This document shows, piece by piece, positions 875 through 15,439 of a stretch of DNA of 42,325 nucleotides. The stretch comes from an uncultured Massilimicrobiota sp. (GTDB lineage Bacteria; Bacillota_I; Bacilli_A; Erysipelotrichales; Coprobacillaceae), in assembly GCA_944326805.1 (NCBI GenBank), contig CALVFK010000002.1:1-42325 (forward strand), in the 5' to 3' direction. The notes under the pieces were generated by a model, which saw only the letters and a list, made by a program, of their open reading frames with translations, was not told where the DNA came from and searched no databases. How positions within the stretch are numbered: position 1 is the stretch's first letter; every line of letters begins with the position of its first letter. Both the position numbers and the translations under genes were made by a program.

Positions 875-903
875 ATCATACATGATTTATTCATTATTGA
901 CAA
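875..903 (-). promoter_or_regulatory. Promoter for the folT leader
   Basis: On the minus strand TTGTCA (898-903) and TATGAT (875-880) are separated by exactly 17 bases. The elements overlap the last codons of the upstream dehydrogenase gene. Transcription would start near 868, giving a leader of about 120 nt before folT. Confidence 0.6.
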
Positions 904-2281
904 TATTTCTTTCTTCACCTTTTAAAAATGAAAGTATATTTTCATAAACTTCATTGACACAACGTTGTCTGGCTTCAATAGAACCCCAGGCAATATGTGG
1001 TGTTAAAATCACTTTATCCATATTCTGTATAGAATAAATCACATCATCTTCTAATAATGGTTCATGTTCAAAAACATCTAAACCAACCCCAGACAGATGT
1101 CCTTCATTTAAAACTTTCACCAAAGCCTTTTCCTCAATAATACCACCACGTCCAACATTGATTAAATACGCTGTATCTTTCATTTTTCTTAAAGCTGCTT
1201 CATCAAATAAATAATGTGTCTGTTCATTTAAAGGCGCATGAATAGTAATAATATCAGATGTCTTTAATAACGTTTCAAAATCAACTTGCTGATAATCACT
1301 TGTTGCATTCTTGCCACTTGTTGAATAATATTGAACTTTTGCTCCCATCGCTTTAGCAATCCCAGCAACAGCTCTGCCAATATGTCCTAATCCAACAATC
1401 CCCCAAGTCATGGAAGACACATCATGAAAAACATCATCAAAATAGCTAAAACGTTCACTATGACAATATGCTTTAGATTTCACAAAACGATCATAAGCCA
1501 CATTCTTTTCAATAAGATGCATTAATAATGCTAAAGTATGTTGAGCAACTGTTGTCGTTGAATAATCTTTGACATTAGCTACCTTGATGCCATGATCATG
1601 GCAATATTTCAAATCAACATTATTCGTTCCTGTCGCAAATAAACAAATCAGTTTCAAATGTTTTAATCCTTCTAAAACATCTTTATTCATAACATTTTTA
1701 TTTGTAATGACAATATCCGCACCTAAGATACGTCCTCTTATTTCAGATTGTTTTGTATCTTCATACATTGTCACTTGTCCTAGTGAACAAAGTTTAGATA
1801 AATCAACATCTTTGCCAACAGAAGCACTCTGTAAAACAACAATATGAACATCTTCTTGACGAAGTAAAGTCATAAAATCTTCTAATGATACGTCTTGAAA
1901 TAATTTCCCTAGATGAATGGCTTCATTTAAATCTAAGATATCTGTAGATAAAGCCACACCACACATTGCATTATCCACAATTTCAAATTTTAAAATATGT
2001 TGGATCATCGCAACTCCTAATGCTTTAGAAGTCATTGTTTTATCATCATCAATTGTTTCTAAAATATGTTGTTTAAAATGTTTTTCCTGCTGTTCACATT
2101 GATAAATACATTCTTGAAGTGATGTATATGATAAGATTTGATCCCTAACCAAATCATGATAAAGAAGTGGTAATACAACATCATAAAGTTCCAATGGAAC
2201 GGGTTTACCATAACCTTTTGTAAAATTATACAGCAACGCTGTTCCTAATTCTTCATCTTTCATTCTATCTACTAGTTTCAT
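887..2281 (-). CDS. D-2-hydroxyacid dehydrogenase with a fused N-terminal domain
   Basis: The 464-residue protein has two parts. Residues ~145-464 are a complete NAD-dependent D-2-hydroxyacid dehydrogenase: nucleotide-binding GLGHIG (297-302), catalytic Arg in NVGRGG (378), Glu in FEHEP (407) and His in TPHIAWG (429). Such enzymes reduce 2-keto acids to D-2-hydroxy acids, and are usually ~320 residues. Residues 1-142 are extra. The pattern ELGTALLYNFTKGYG ... VVLPLLYHD, then a Ser/Leu-rich helix, resembles the 'middle component' of three-component ABC (ABC-3C) systems; this is a weak resemblance by eye. The chosen ATG has GGAGG 8 nt upstream and overlaps the preceding metallophosphoesterase gene by 17 bases, so the two are probably translationally coupled. 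Substrate unknown. Confidence 0.75.
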   Translation of the reverse strand: MKLVDRMKDEELGTALLYNFTKGYGKPVPLELYDVVLPLLYHDLVRDQILSYTSLQECIYQCEQQEKHFKQHILETIDDDKTMTSKALGVAMIQHILKFEIVDNAMCGVALSTDILDLNEAIHLGKLFQDVSLEDFMTLLRQEDVHIVVLQSASVGKDVDLSKLCSLGQVTMYEDTKQSEIRGRILGADIVITNKNVMNKDVLEGLKHLKLICLFATGTNNVDLKYCHDHGIKVANVKDYSTTTVAQHTLALLMHLIEKNVAYDRFVKSKAYCHSERFSYFDDVFHDVSSMTWGIVGLGHIGRAVAGIAKAMGAKVQYYSTSGKNATSDYQQVDFETLLKTSDIITIHAPLNEQTHYLFDEAALRKMKDTAYLINVGRGGIIEEKALVKVLNEGHLSGVGLDVFEHEPLLEDDVIYSIQNMDKVILTPHIAWGSIEARQRCVNEVYENILSFLKGEERNIVNNE

Positions 2282-3734
2282 CTTCATTTCCTCCCTCAAA
2301 TAAATAAACTTCGACACGCTGTCTTTCTGCTTTTGCTTTATCATCATAGAAAATCATACATAATTTCATTTTCTTCTCTTGAATATCATATTTCATAATA
2401 TTATACGAAATATAACGACTACGACTTTCTTTTAAACCACCAGTGGCACTACCCGCACCAATATAATAACAGCCATCTACCTCTCTAAAAAAAGGTAAAT
2501 GCTTATGTCCATGAAATACATAATGTATGTTTCGTTTCTGTAACCATTCAATCAATAACGGTGCATCTACTAAAACCTTTGATGTTTCTACAATTCGATT
2601 AATAAATGTTTTTTCATGCCATTTGGTTTTAATAAATTGAGCCTTATCAATAGGATAAACATGATGATGCAACAAAACCAATAAAGTATAGTCTTCCAAA
2701 TGATCAATCGCTGATAACTCATCATCAATTTCCATTAATTGTCTTTTTCCTATTTTCCCTCTAGCAAGATTTCCTTCACTGGTTGTATCCATTTTAATAA
2801 TAATAATTTTTTCTTTTTCCAGAACCTTAATATTTTCACCTAACAAATAAGCAATGACTTTACTTTTTTGATTTCTTGCAAAGTTAAATCCATGCACAAT
2901 CACATCATGATTTCCTAATATAAAAGTCACATTCGCTTTATAACGTTTCTTTAAACTATTCATAAAATCATTAGCTAAATACATATTTTTACGATTAGGA
3001 GATTCCATTAAATCACCTGTAATCAAAATATTCACAGGCCATAACGAAGGAAGTCTTGGCATCAATTCATCTAATGAAGCATAAAGTCGTGCTAGTCCTT
3101 TTTGACGTTTGTTTTTACCTAGATGCAAATCACTTAACTGAATAAAATAAGCATCATTTTGATAGTGTTGATATATATCAAACAAAGGTAATTGCTGTTC
3201 AATAGCCTTTTTAAGTTGAGTGAAATCTTCGATTTGTTTTATAGGAACGAAAACCATCTTCTGTTCCTGAAAAATCAAGCATCCCGGCCACGAATCCACA
3301 TGATTCAAAGCACAGAAGAAAGCAGGGAAAGGATCAAAAAATGATAAATTATCTTTTTGAAAATGACCAGAAATCGCATAAAAACAGATGTTTTCATATG
3401 TAGGAAAAGATATCATTTTCAAATCATTTTCATCAAATCCTGGCACATATACAATATGAATTGCTTTTTCATAAGTTTGTGCAATTGTTTCCATTTCTAC
3501 TGAAAAAGGAATATGTAAAATATGATCAACATCTTCCACTTTCATTAAATATGATAATAAGGCATATTCATCCTTTGTAATAGACTCTAAAACAGGGCAT
3601 GAAATATGACGTTGATTTAACCATTGAATAAAACTTTGAAGATAGTCATAGGACATGAGAAAATCACGCATATATGCCAATTCATTACGATAAACAATAT
3701 TAAAAAAGGTATTGATAAAGAAGATTTCATTCAC
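2265..3734 (-). CDS. Metallophosphoesterase with uncharacterised N-terminal half
   Basis: Residues ~197 onward carry the calcineurin-like phosphoesterase motifs in order: DLH (202-204), GDL (~240), GNHD (274-277), HHH (~356-358) and GHKH (409-412). These ligate two metal ions for phosphoester hydrolysis. The first ~190 residues show no domain I recognise. No signal peptide is evident, so it is probably cytoplasmic. The start is taken as GTG at 3734, because the GTG at 3746 lies inside the ribosome binding sequence GAGGTG. It is first in a two-gene unit with the dehydrogenase fusion, with overlapping ends. A TATAAT box at 3758-3763 is its likely -10 element. Its substrate cannot be inferred. 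Confidence 0.75.
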   Translation of the reverse strand: MNEIFFINTFFNIVYRNELAYMRDFLMSYDYLQSFIQWLNQRHISCPVLESITKDEYALLSYLMKVEDVDHILHIPFSVEMETIAQTYEKAIHIVYVPGFDENDLKMISFPTYENICFYAISGHFQKDNLSFFDPFPAFFCALNHVDSWPGCLIFQEQKMVFVPIKQIEDFTQLKKAIEQQLPLFDIYQHYQNDAYFIQLSDLHLGKNKRQKGLARLYASLDELMPRLPSLWPVNILITGDLMESPNRKNMYLANDFMNSLKKRYKANVTFILGNHDVIVHGFNFARNQKSKVIAYLLGENIKVLEKEKIIIIKMDTTSEGNLARGKIGKRQLMEIDDELSAIDHLEDYTLLVLLHHHVYPIDKAQFIKTKWHEKTFINRIVETSKVLVDAPLLIEWLQKRNIHYVFHGHKHLPFFREVDGCYYIGAGSATGGLKESRSRYISYNIMKYDIQEKKMKLCMIFYDDKAKAERQRVEVYLFEGGNEDETSR

Positions 3735-3769: not shown

Positions 3770-3810
3770 ATAAAAATAGAAAAACATGGAAATTCATATT
3801 TTCCCATGTT
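3770..3810 (-). terminator. Terminator after asnS
   Basis: On the minus strand AACATGG pairs with CCATGTT (plus-strand arms 3804-3810 and 3783-3789). The 3' side is a T-rich tract. It sits just beyond the asnS stop. Confidence 0.6.
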
Positions 3811-3824
3811 CCTGTCAAATCTTT

Positions 3825-11290: not shown

Positions 11291-11325
11291 AAGATGCAGA
11301 GATTTTTCTCCCTGCATCTTTTTTT
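11291..11325 (+). terminator. Bidirectional terminator between ackA and the adhesin gene
   Basis: AAGATGCAG (11291-11299) pairs with CTGCATCTT (11312-11320) and is followed by a T-tract. Read on the minus strand it also ends in five T, so it can serve both convergent genes. Confidence 0.85.
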
Positions 11326-14300
11326 ACATATTGTCTTCTTTTTTTGATCTATACTTCAACATGATCATCAAACCAAGACTTCCTCCAGCTAATATCATCA
11401 TATTCATGATATCTGATGAGTCCCCAGTTTTCACAATTACCGGTATTCTGCTATTTTCATACTGTAAGCTATGTATGTTTCCAATACCTTCAAGTTGATT
11501 GTCAATCACAATCTTCACGACTTCATCAGATAACTGATAACCTTGTGGTGCTTTGGTTTCTTTAAGAAAAACAATCTGACCATATGTTAAATCTGTAAAA
11601 GTCACTGTTCCTTTATTGATGTCAGCTTTGACTGTCTTTAATGGATTTTGACACTTTTCATCTGAATATAGCGTAAATTCAAAATCATTATGAACAATGT
11701 TTTGTTGTGTCTGACTGTCAATCTTATTGACCTGAATATCAGTTAAAACACGATAATCTGTCATTGTCAATGTCATATCCTGCATCTGATCCACAGTGAA
11801 AACAATTGATGATGCTTTCTTATATCCTTCTGGTGTTTTGATTTCAGTAAGTGTATAAGTTTCACCTGCTTTTAATCCTTTAACATTATGATATGTTCCA
11901 TCTGTTGTCCATTCATCAATGATGTTATTTTGCTGGTCAGTTATCTGTAAAATAGCATCCTTAACAGCAATCCCTTTGTCATCTATCTTTTGAACGCTCA
12001 CTCTTGTATCGACCATTGATAAATGCATATCTTCAGCTTCTTTGACTGTAAACTGTATTTCATTGGCAGTCACATATCCATCCGGTGTTTTGATTTCTTT
12101 TAAAATATAAGTTTCACCAACTTTCAATCCTTCTACAAAATGTTTAGTTTCATCACTGACCCATTGATCAACAATATTCTTTGTTTTGGTACTGACCACC
12201 TGTAACGTGGCCCCTTTGACAGGTTTTTCATCTGCATCTAACTTTGTCACATCTACCTGTGTATCTTTCATTACAATCGCTTGTTTGTTTTTAGACATTG
12301 TAAACTTCACATCTTTGGCATAAGTATAACCAAGTGGTGTCAAATCTTCACGATAGATATAATCTTTTCCCATGACAAGTCCTTTAATGAAGTGCGTCTT
12401 ACCATCACTTACCCAGTGTTCTATAGTTTCTCCAGTTTCAGCATCTATCACGGTGTATTCTCCACCTTTGAGTTCTGTTCCATTGAGATCTTGTTTAGAG
12501 AAATAAGTTTCTGTTAGCTTGTTGTTGACCGTCTTTTCGACTACATATTCTTTCGTTGTATTGTCTTTCATTTCAAATTCAAAGATGACAGGTTCATCCA
12601 GAAGCACATAGCCATCAACAGTCTTGATTTCTTCCACCTTATACTGTGCTCCATTTGTTCCAAGTGGTAAATCCTTTAATTCCAGTTTTCCACTTTCATC
12701 AATCATGTAAATACCATCAGTTGCAGTGTCCATGTTGACAGAATCACCTTTTTTGTAGATGATCTTTCCAGTTGCCGGATCAACAATATCGCTGTTAGCT
12801 GTTACTTTGAACTGTGCGCCACCAACCGCTGTATCTTTATCTAACTCAAATGTCTTATGTAAAATCAAATGACCTGTTGGTTTTTCATTAACAAATGTCA
12901 CTTCAATGACTGGCTGATGATCTTCATCAAAAATGATGTCCTGACGATCAGAAGAAATTTCAACCTTGATGTCATCACCTATTAAGAATCCTTCAGGTGT
13001 TTTCAATTCTTCAAGAGTATATAATCCTGATTCTACCATATCATCCAAGACAACATATCCCTTTTCATCAGTCGTCCATTCATCCTTATAAACTAAACCG
13101 ACTTTCTGCTTAACATAATTTCCATCTTCATCTTTTAGCTTGAATGTGGCATGAGATAAAGTGACTTTCTGCCCCTGATGATCAGTTTTAACAATCTTTA
13201 GCCATGCCTTGAATGGAGCATTGTTGACCATTCTATATTCAATTTCCTGATCTTCATCAATAGTGATAAAGAAATCACCACTGGCATAATAATTTTCTGG
13301 TGTTTTTGTTTCCTTGATTTGATAGATACCATAAGGCAAATCAACAGATGTATCTCGCCCTGTTTGATCTGTGACGAGCACATCATATGTTTTGGATTTT
13401 TCCCATCCATTCTTTTGAACATCTGAGTAAAGTTTGATTGTAAATTCAACACCTGCCAAACCTTGTGTGATACCACTTGATCCATCAGAACCCATCTTAG
13501 CCACTTCCAGCTTTCCTTTGATGACCTGTTCCTTAGAAACAACATTTTGTGTCACAACCTGCTGTGTTGAATTAGAAGATGTCAATGTCACAATCTGTGG
13601 AGAATCCAACAAATATCCAATACTTGGTTTTGTTTCCTCGACACGGTAACTTCCCATTGGCAAATTAGACCAAGAAATTTTCGCATGACTGTTAGTTGTC
13701 TTCGTTCCTGTATCACCCCAGACACCATTACCAACTGTCTTTTGAGAAATAACTTCATCTTTTTTATAAAGTACTGTCCCATCAGCTGGACTGAGAATAT
13801 TCTGATTAGCTTTTAAAACATATTCCGCTTCTTTTAAAGTGGCATCACCTTGAGCAGTATTACCAGTTTCCTTATCCTGTTTTTCGAGTTCAATTTTCCC
13901 TAGAACAGGCTCATTATAGATTTCAATCGCATAAGTTTTGCCATTTTCAGTCACACTTTGGTTCTTTTCCAGTGTCACAATGACATAGTTTTGTGGCGCT
14001 TCCTTTTCACGAATCGTATACGTTCCATAATCAAGTAAACCTGTTTTGGCAATACCTTCATTGTTTGTAGATATTGTCGAAACAACATGACTGCCACTCA
14101 ATACTTCAAACTTTGTCCCAGCTTTCTTGACTATCTCTCCTGTTTTCTTATCTTTCTTGACAACTTGAATATAGCCTTGTTTCCAGTTATTGGTTTGTGT
14201 AAATGAAGCTGTCTGTCCAGCTTTTAATTCGACTGAATGAACTGTTGAATCCAAAACAAGATGATCTGGCACTTTAATTTCCTGTATATAGACAGTTGTC

Positions 14301-15439
14301 GGTTTTAATTGACTGATTGTCACTGTTCCATCTTTTCCAGTTGTATATGTACCTAGACTTGGATTCATATTGGCATTATAGGAAATCTTGAACTGTACAT
14401 CAGCAATATCATTTCCCTTATTGTCCTTCTTGGCAATCTTTAAAGCAGACGTTCCTATCTTGATTTTAAAGAAAGCACTTGGTAAAGCTTCATCCAGTTT
14501 TCCAGCAATCGCAACTTTTTGATAACTTTCAGAACTATCCAGACAAATAAGCTGTCTTTTGTTTAAATCAAGACTGTTTGTTGCTGAAACAGTTTTGGTA
14601 TTTTCAAAAGAAGCATTGGCTGTCACTTTGAGAACATTTCCGCTTTTATCAAATGATAAACCATCAGATTTGAAATCATATCTATCCAAGACACTATTTT
14701 GATCATTCATCTCCATATAGTAATGACGGCCATCAAAGTCCGTCATTTCGTAAGTCTTGGCTAAACTTTCACTTTTTGCAGAAAAGCTTGGAATCTTGCT
14801 CCAGGATATCAATGTTTCACTATAAGAATCATAGTATTTTTTGACATTGGATTTTGTTGTAGAGTTAGACCAATTCAATGCGTTATAGACTGAAGTCGCT
14901 CCACTCGTTGTCACTCCTCGATAGCTTCCATCTGCCTTTCTTTCACCTACCATGATTTCCCATACAATGATCTGAGCAGCATACCATTGATAGGCATTAC
15001 CTTTGACTGCTTTTAATGATCCACTCGTATTGTATTCCACATTGATTTTTGTAGGAGCAAGACTTAAGACTCTACTAATCAATGTTTCTTTTTGTGAAGC
15101 ACTTAAGTATTTATTTTTCTGTGCTTCTTCAATCAAATCAATCGTATCAGTCGGTGTATACTGTGTTCCATCATGAACAGCCTTGCCATGTTCAAGACAA
15201 TAAAAATACTGCCCATTTGTTGTTAAAAGAACAGTTACACCTTCATCATAGGCACTTTCATCCAAGATTGTGCCATCATTGAGTTTGGCTCCATCTTTTG
15301 TCGTGACACCTGGCAAATAATTGTAGGTGTTCATCTCATAAGATGCTGCGTGAACTTGACTTATGTTCAACGCAAATAAACAAGATAAAATTGATAATAA
15401 AACTTTTTTGAATGCATGAAATAGTTTATGTTTATTCAT
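11324..15439 (-). CDS. Large cell-wall adhesin: thioester domain plus ~10 SpaA/Cna-B repeats
   Basis: 1371 residues. A signal peptide ends near Ala32 (HAASYE). Residues ~35-325 resemble a thioester (TQXA) adhesin domain: Cys81 in YFYCLEHGK and Gln156 in YAAQIIVWE are the expected bond partners. From ~330 to ~1325 there are about ten prealbumin-like SpaA/Cna-B modules. Each begins with a 'xxKxD' strand (KIAKKD, QVVKKD, ELEKQD, KIVKTD, DVTKLD, NKID) and ends with an E-K-TP-GY block, consistent with intramolecular Lys-Asn isopeptide bonds. The C-terminus has IVKTGD (1335-1340), a hydrophobic segment and a basic tail, a sorting signal without the usual LPxTG proline. No sortase is in the window. 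It probably presents a covalently attaching tip domain on a stalk at the cell surface. Ribosome site: AGGAGGG. Confidence 0.9.
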   Translation of the reverse strand: MNKHKLFHAFKKVLLSILSCLFALNISQVHAASYEMNTYNYLPGVTTKDGAKLNDGTILDESAYDEGVTVLLTTNGQYFYCLEHGKAVHDGTQYTPTDTIDLIEEAQKNKYLSASQKETLISRVLSLAPTKINVEYNTSGSLKAVKGNAYQWYAAQIIVWEIMVGERKADGSYRGVTTSGATSVYNALNWSNSTTKSNVKKYYDSYSETLISWSKIPSFSAKSESLAKTYEMTDFDGRHYYMEMNDQNSVLDRYDFKSDGLSFDKSGNVLKVTANASFENTKTVSATNSLDLNKRQLICLDSSESYQKVAIAGKLDEALPSAFFKIKIGTSALKIAKKDNKGNDIADVQFKISYNANMNPSLGTYTTGKDGTVTISQLKPTTVYIQEIKVPDHLVLDSTVHSVELKAGQTASFTQTNNWKQGYIQVVKKDKKTGEIVKKAGTKFEVLSGSHVVSTISTNNEGIAKTGLLDYGTYTIREKEAPQNYVIVTLEKNQSVTENGKTYAIEIYNEPVLGKIELEKQDKETGNTAQGDATLKEAEYVLKANQNILSPADGTVLYKKDEVISQKTVGNGVWGDTGTKTTNSHAKISWSNLPMGSYRVEETKPSIGYLLDSPQIVTLTSSNSTQQVVTQNVVSKEQVIKGKLEVAKMGSDGSSGITQGLAGVEFTIKLYSDVQKNGWEKSKTYDVLVTDQTGRDTSVDLPYGIYQIKETKTPENYYASGDFFITIDEDQEIEYRMVNNAPFKAWLKIVKTDHQGQKVTLSHATFKLKDEDGNYVKQKVGLVYKDEWTTDEKGYVVLDDMVESGLYTLEELKTPEGFLIGDDIKVEISSDRQDIIFDEDHQPVIEVTFVNEKPTGHLILHKTFELDKDTAVGGAQFKVTANSDIVDPATGKIIYKKGDSVNMDTATDGIYMIDESGKLELKDLPLGTNGAQYKVEEIKTVDGYVLLDEPVIFEFEMKDNTTKEYVVEKTVNNKLTETYFSKQDLNGTELKGGEYTVIDAETGETIEHWVSDGKTHFIKGLVMGKDYIYREDLTPLGYTYAKDVKFTMSKNKQAIVMKDTQVDVTKLDADEKPVKGATLQVVSTKTKNIVDQWVSDETKHFVEGLKVGETYILKEIKTPDGYVTANEIQFTVKEAEDMHLSMVDTRVSVQKIDDKGIAVKDAILQITDQQNNIIDEWTTDGTYHNVKGLKAGETYTLTEIKTPEGYKKASSIVFTVDQMQDMTLTMTDYRVLTDIQVNKIDSQTQQNIVHNDFEFTLYSDEKCQNPLKTVKADINKGTVTFTDLTYGQIVFLKETKAPQGYQLSDEVVKIVIDNQLEGIGNIHSLQYENSRIPVIVKTGDSSDIMNMMILAGGSLGLMIMLKYRSKKEDNM

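Follow-up and report, generated by a model that had tools for sequence, protein, structure and literature searches.

On the reverse strand of the window (the whole stretch of DNA analysed, 42,325 nucleotides), the gene at 887-2281 encodes a protein of 464 residues followed by a stop codon. The product is a D-2-hydroxyacid dehydrogenase with an adaptor domain fused to its N-terminus, and the gene is preceded by one encoding a metallophosphoesterase (Table 1). A mechanical version of the open reading frame is longer and starts at 2347. The ATG at 2281 was judged correct because GGGAGG lies 8 nt 5' of it and because the start MKLVDxMKDE is conserved family-wide among the fusion proteins, so the fusion described in the first-pass annotation is real and does not stem from a wrongly placed start. 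The overlap with the phosphoesterase gene, which had also been described, measures 17 nt, and translational coupling of the two genes through it is likely given their arrangement.

Table 1. Features of the fusion gene and its phosphoesterase partner (positions in the window).
Feature	Position	Strand	Basis
D-2-hydroxyacid dehydrogenase part, residues 146-464 and stop	887..1846	-	Profile matches, catalytic residues intact
N-terminal MC3/LmuC-like adaptor (fusion protein residues 1-145)	1847..2281	-	Pfam MC3, AF2 model, PDB matches
Overlap of phosphoesterase stop and fusion start, 17 nt	2265..2281	-	ORF coordinates
Putative ribosome-binding site GGGAGG, within the end of the phosphoesterase gene, serving ATG 2281	2290..2295	-	Sequence, inferred
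Metallophosphoesterase catalytic part with stop	2265..3149	-	Metallophos 9.9e-11
Phosphoesterase N-terminal region of ~195 residues, no known family	3150..3734	-	Pfam negative, confident model
Hairpin resembling a terminator, between asnS and the pair	3780..3813	-	Consensus scan only

The N-terminal ~142 residues (1-142, entered as 1-145 in Table 1) are a middle-component/LmuC-type domain of ABC-3C (Lamassu), as judged from two HMM libraries and from the fold. The first-pass annotation had noted this resemblance, and both profile search and structure prediction bear it out; the domain is not one commonly associated with dehydrogenases. The window's domain matches the Pfam family MC3 (PF20131, ABC-3C Middle Component 3) with 28.2 bits (E 1.6e-6, cut-off 23.2). 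When the domains were scanned singly, MC3 matched 24 of 29 family members at E<=0.01, and those of L053 and L058 gave no match to it even at E<=1. The LmuC model of PADLOC (PDLC03870) matches 10/29 members at E<=0.1 (best 4.5e-7), and the window's own copy does not match it. An AlphaFold2 model of the domain was built from a 29-row alignment (mean pLDDT 88.4, pTM 0.83). The first three rows of a Foldseek comparison of this model with the PDB were chains of Lamassu complexes (E 1.0e-4, 3.2e-4 and 4.7e-3), and the next row had an E of 1.0. The top fold rows, 9hqu_D, 9uxh_D and 9ny5_C, are presumably LmuC given their entry titles and lengths (164-171). The title of one matched Lamassu entry includes the words "nuclease sequestration state".

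It is very improbable that the domain is a generic winged helix whose likeness to LmuC arose by convergence. Winged helices are common, the window's MC3 score is barely above the cut-off, and the domain shares 18-22% of its sequence with the Lamassu chains. There is also no match to these chains by sequence, as a search of the PDB with the adaptor profile failed to reach them and returned only repeat proteins and a transporter at chance level. Convergence is opposed by the support of two independent HMM libraries and by a fold match over the whole domain, with VIA Z scores of 16.4 (138 residues, 3.3 A), 16.4 (139 residues, 3.5 A) and 15.4 (139 residues, 3.6 A) to Lamassu entries as against 7.0 for the best non-Lamassu row, which consists of generic winged helices. 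A fourth Lamassu entry scored 9.2 (120 residues, 3.8 A).

The C-terminal ~319 residues match 2-Hacid_dh_C of Pfam (3e-53) and NF006263 (400 bits, cut-off 389). R378, E407 and H429, which we take to be the catalytic residues, are kept in 35/35 fused rows of the alignment that cover those positions, and the GxGxxG NAD-binding motif is kept in all 36 of 36. The dehydrogenase part is complete, as had been claimed along with its ~142 extra N-terminal residues, and is predicted to be catalytically intact and NAD(H)-dependent. The solved structures closest to it are those of a dehydrogenase, of glyoxylate reductases and of phosphoglycerate dehydrogenase, and CtBP is also among the solved relatives. 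In CtBP, the dehydrogenase fold serves as an NADH sensor. The full double-Rossmann enzyme is alike in the fusion and in known D-2-hydroxyacid dehydrogenases (NF006263; 5tx7, 2dbq; CtBP as a regulatory member). Unlike these, the fusion has an N-terminal adaptor and a phosphoesterase gene as its partner. No description of this architecture was found in the literature searched; it is a new architecture made from known parts.

The phosphoesterase is 489 to 493 residues long, and its metal-binding motifs are invariant in an alignment of 25 sequences. Its N-terminal half had been noted as unfamiliar and indeed has no Pfam family. The ~195 residues of the window's copy have no Pfam match at E<=0.1, and across 24 members the hits are scattered and at chance level, each occurring in at most 2 of the 24. 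This region was found in 41/43 genomes of the window's family. In a sample of 392 genomes of the phylum it was convincing in the window's family only (17 genomes, with three further weak rows). A model of the region (pLDDT 86.4, pTM 0.84) shows a helical and an alpha/beta unit, for which the best VIA row in the PDB was thioredoxin-like (Z 6.2) and no clear fold relative was found. The metal-binding core has weak profile similarity to SbcD/Mre11 nucleases (1.1e-5). The protein is distinct from them, and a role as a substitute for SbcD was rejected since a separate true sbcD is present in 8/8 genomes searched. In one genome (G013, L044:8823-10187), the phosphoesterase has 455 residues and its N-terminal region is shortened and divergent. 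In another (G004, L032:7844-9144, a single contig), it is split into two ORFs by either decay or sequencing error, and the fusion gene is intact.

In the genomes searched, the fusion was found in the window's family only. The adaptor domain was found in 33 of 60 relatives, namely 33/37 in this family and 0/23 in the neighbouring one. After further genomes of the family had been read at the locus, the fusion was counted in 38/43 (Massilimicrobiota, Thomasclavelia, Faecalibacillus and Sharpea kin). At this position, two genomes (G012 and G028) encode a dehydrogenase that lacks the adaptor domain, and in a third (G014) no dehydrogenase adjoins the phosphoesterase. In G412 the contig ends inside the phosphoesterase; nothing was found in G005, a genome that is 69% complete. 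A scan of 84,980 species returned 29 loci, and the hosts named by genus or family (Massilimicrobiota, Stoquefichus, Longibaculum, Faecalibacillus, Thomasclavelia, Sharpea and Beduini) all belong to the window's group. In the 392-genome sample, the domain was likewise confined to the window's family (16 hits), and MC3 rows outside that family were weak or in broken frames. The adaptor model had no match under E 0.5 among viral structures. No relative was found in viral contigs searched with the adaptor, nor in plasmids searched with the adaptor of a relative.

In a tree of the dehydrogenase part (45 rows), the unfused G012 and G028 copies nest among the fused ones, on branches that are starred. 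Three changes of the fused/unfused label are needed on this tree, which we take as a single gain followed by two losses. The fusion was thus gained once in the ancestor of the family and lost at least twice, and it is ancient and vertically inherited. Loss of the adaptor was clean at the domain border, since in both G012 and G028 the dehydrogenase start and the phosphoesterase stop overlap. Over eight comparisons, dN/dS was 0.09-0.38 for the adaptor domain and 0.07-0.20 for the dehydrogenase, which shows purifying selection on the adaptor. Together, the single gain, the losses and the dN/dS values show that the adaptor is ancient in the family and selected, yet dispensable in some lineages. 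In G028 (L118:3974-5856), the dehydrogenase stands in tandem duplicate, with the second copy broken into two frames.

Ahead of the pair, the window and most relatives carry tsaE-tsaB-rimI-tsaD-rex-asnS (gene names read by eye from the sequences). A scripted check found the two genes adjacent in 28/30 fetched stretches (the 60-relative search gave 32 hits besides the window, of which 30 were fetched); L056, at a contig end, is a 29th stretch with the pair adjacent. The co-occurrence across genomes that the first-pass annotation proposed to check was thus confirmed. In G006 (L050), the fusion is kept and the phosphoesterase lies on another contig. In L053-L055, and in L056, the rex-asnS context is gone and the pair is still together. 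The locus is a fixed housekeeping neighbourhood in most genomes, not a defence island. Downstream of the pair the genes vary and include a folate-transporter-like membrane gene (by eye), a DbpA-type helicase, scpA and others. A fixed third gene of the unit was rejected since these genes differ among relatives. A DEAD-box helicase lies 3' of the fusion gene at L041:84-1664, L044:5717-7315 and L050:9832-11379, with a DbpA RNA-binding domain detected in the L041 and L050 helicases; it follows the fusion gene in G006 too, despite the phosphoesterase having moved. In a sub-clade (L058, L118, L119, L120, L046, L040 and L057), scpA and mostly scpB (by eye) lie directly or one to two genes downstream.

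According to a review (PMC10586767), LmuC is the small middle component of Lamassu, the components presumably assemble into one complex, and a double-Rossmann dehydrogenase type is listed among Lamassu effectors. It is unlikely, in our view, that the locus is an ABC-3C/Lamassu defence system in reduced or unusual form, in which the dehydrogenase would be an effector on the middle component and the phosphoesterase a second effector. The MC/LmuC domain and the listing of such a dehydrogenase speak for it, as do matches of the phosphoesterase to DS9_1, an anti-phage phosphoesterase model, in 25/25 members, though far below the cut-off (64.5 bits in the window, cut-off 420). LmuC of Lamassu is a free subunit, whereas the domain here is fused to a dehydrogenase at a core-genome locus. 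No LmuA was found beside the fusion locus; the N-terminal region of the phosphoesterase, viewed as a candidate LmuA effector with its C-terminal docking domain, matched no Pfam family and had no clear counterpart in the PDB. No LmuB-like ATPase was found among ten large ORFs of the window (PADLOC) or ten larger neighbour genes of relatives (Pfam). Since the adjacent ATPase is absent where tested, the fusion and phosphoesterase pair is not a Lamassu/ABC-3C system. The housekeeping place in most genomes, the vertical inheritance and the lack of a related locus in viral contigs and plasmids also count against defence. The first-pass annotation's middle-component call and its expectation of co-occurrence thus held, and its hint of a conflict system did not: the locus is family-wide and vertically inherited, in a housekeeping neighbourhood with no LmuB-like ATPase in the neighbours scanned. 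As for an LmuB elsewhere in the genome, the window's own (G000, 87.6% complete) has 11 AAA_23 matches, and three among the strong ones, of Rad50/SMC type, were read by eye as SMC, SbcC and RecN.

DS-9 is an anti-phage unit of a metallophosphatase and a HAD phosphatase, and its metallophosphatase, DS-9A, is experimentally supported (PMC13092281). The catalytic part of the phosphoesterase is distantly like DS-9A, and both loci are two-gene units. They differ in that the DS9_1 cut-off is missed by far here, in the core location of the present locus, and in the second gene, which encodes a hydroxyacid dehydrogenase here and the HAD phosphatase in DS-9.

The reading we favour, at about even odds, is that an intact dehydrogenase has been joined to a captured LmuC adaptor that tethers it to a partner, in a housekeeping regulatory or metabolic role and not in phage defence. 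The family ancestor would have acquired an LmuC-type winged-helix adaptor from a source resembling ABC-3C/Lamassu. As in its original system, this adaptor may still hold an enzyme within a complex and set how active that enzyme is. By tethering the dehydrogenase to its partner, it would let the NAD(H) or 2-hydroxyacid state control a second activity. The simplest candidate for the partner would be the co-translated phosphoesterase, with the use of the dehydrogenase fold by CtBP as an analogy. Docking onto the phosphoesterase is a guess, as co-evolution is negative, the phosphoesterase outlasts the adaptor (G012 and G028) and, beside it, the dehydrogenase (G014), and the two genes are split in G006. 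Co-evolution was assessed in 20 loci and the window (10 of the 30 stretches were dropped with a gene missing or broken). Beyond species distance, the partial r between the adaptor and the phosphoesterase N-terminus was -0.15, and 433/500 permutations were as high. The value for the dehydrogenase and the phosphoesterase (0.46-0.48) is uninformative, as control genes reach 0.49.

A purely metabolic pair is a strong rival to this tethering. Possibly, the two genes form an ordinary metabolic or metabolite-repair pair in which the adaptor-derived domain merely helps to oligomerise or stabilise the enzyme. In one tentative version, the phosphoesterase would take the phosphate off a phospho-hydroxyacid or nucleotide by-product, leaving a product for the dehydrogenase to reduce or oxidise. 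The housekeeping locus, the vertical inheritance, the intact catalytic residues and the identity of the nearest solved relatives all agree with such a pair, and two lineages have dispensed with the adaptor and retained the dehydrogenase. What it leaves unexplained is the choice of a Lamassu adaptor in particular, and the ~142-codon domain is retained under purifying selection in 38 of the 43 genomes. The adaptor may also serve oligomerisation alone.

LmuC is part of an SMC/Rad50-like machine, and the second-tier fold rows of the adaptor model include the winged helix of ScpA (4i99, Z 6.2). That the adaptor links the dehydrogenase with the SMC complex of the chromosome, through a kleisin-like winged helix, is nonetheless very unlikely. 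A Z of 6.2 is what any winged helix would give, and the adjacency of scpA and scpB, which would suit such a connection, is limited to one clade, where it also occurs with the adaptor lost (G012 and G028) or no dehydrogenase beside the phosphoesterase (G014). A further, rather unlikely reading is that the two genes form a housekeeping signalling unit. The LmuC-derived adaptor would then couple the phosphoesterase, or else the SMC machinery, to the NAD(H) state of the cell, an anti-phage adaptor having been domesticated.

ABC-3C/Lamassu adaptors have been treated as components of defence machinery, and the fusion shows one outside its system. Its ~142-residue domain offers a test piece for LmuC binding on its own. 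The locus also draws attention to an uncharacterised phosphoesterase of the core genome, found in gut bacteria of humans and animals, whose N-terminal region is new.

Some minor observations concern the window and one relative. Regulation through Rex sites was considered and rejected, as 35 pattern matches in the window compare with 30.7 expected. An ORF of 1371 residues at 11324-15439 of the window has a signal-peptide-like start and no PADLOC match, and probably encodes a surface protein. In G020 (L218), a DndD-like ATPase of 646 residues (by eye) suggests a DNA phosphorothioation system.
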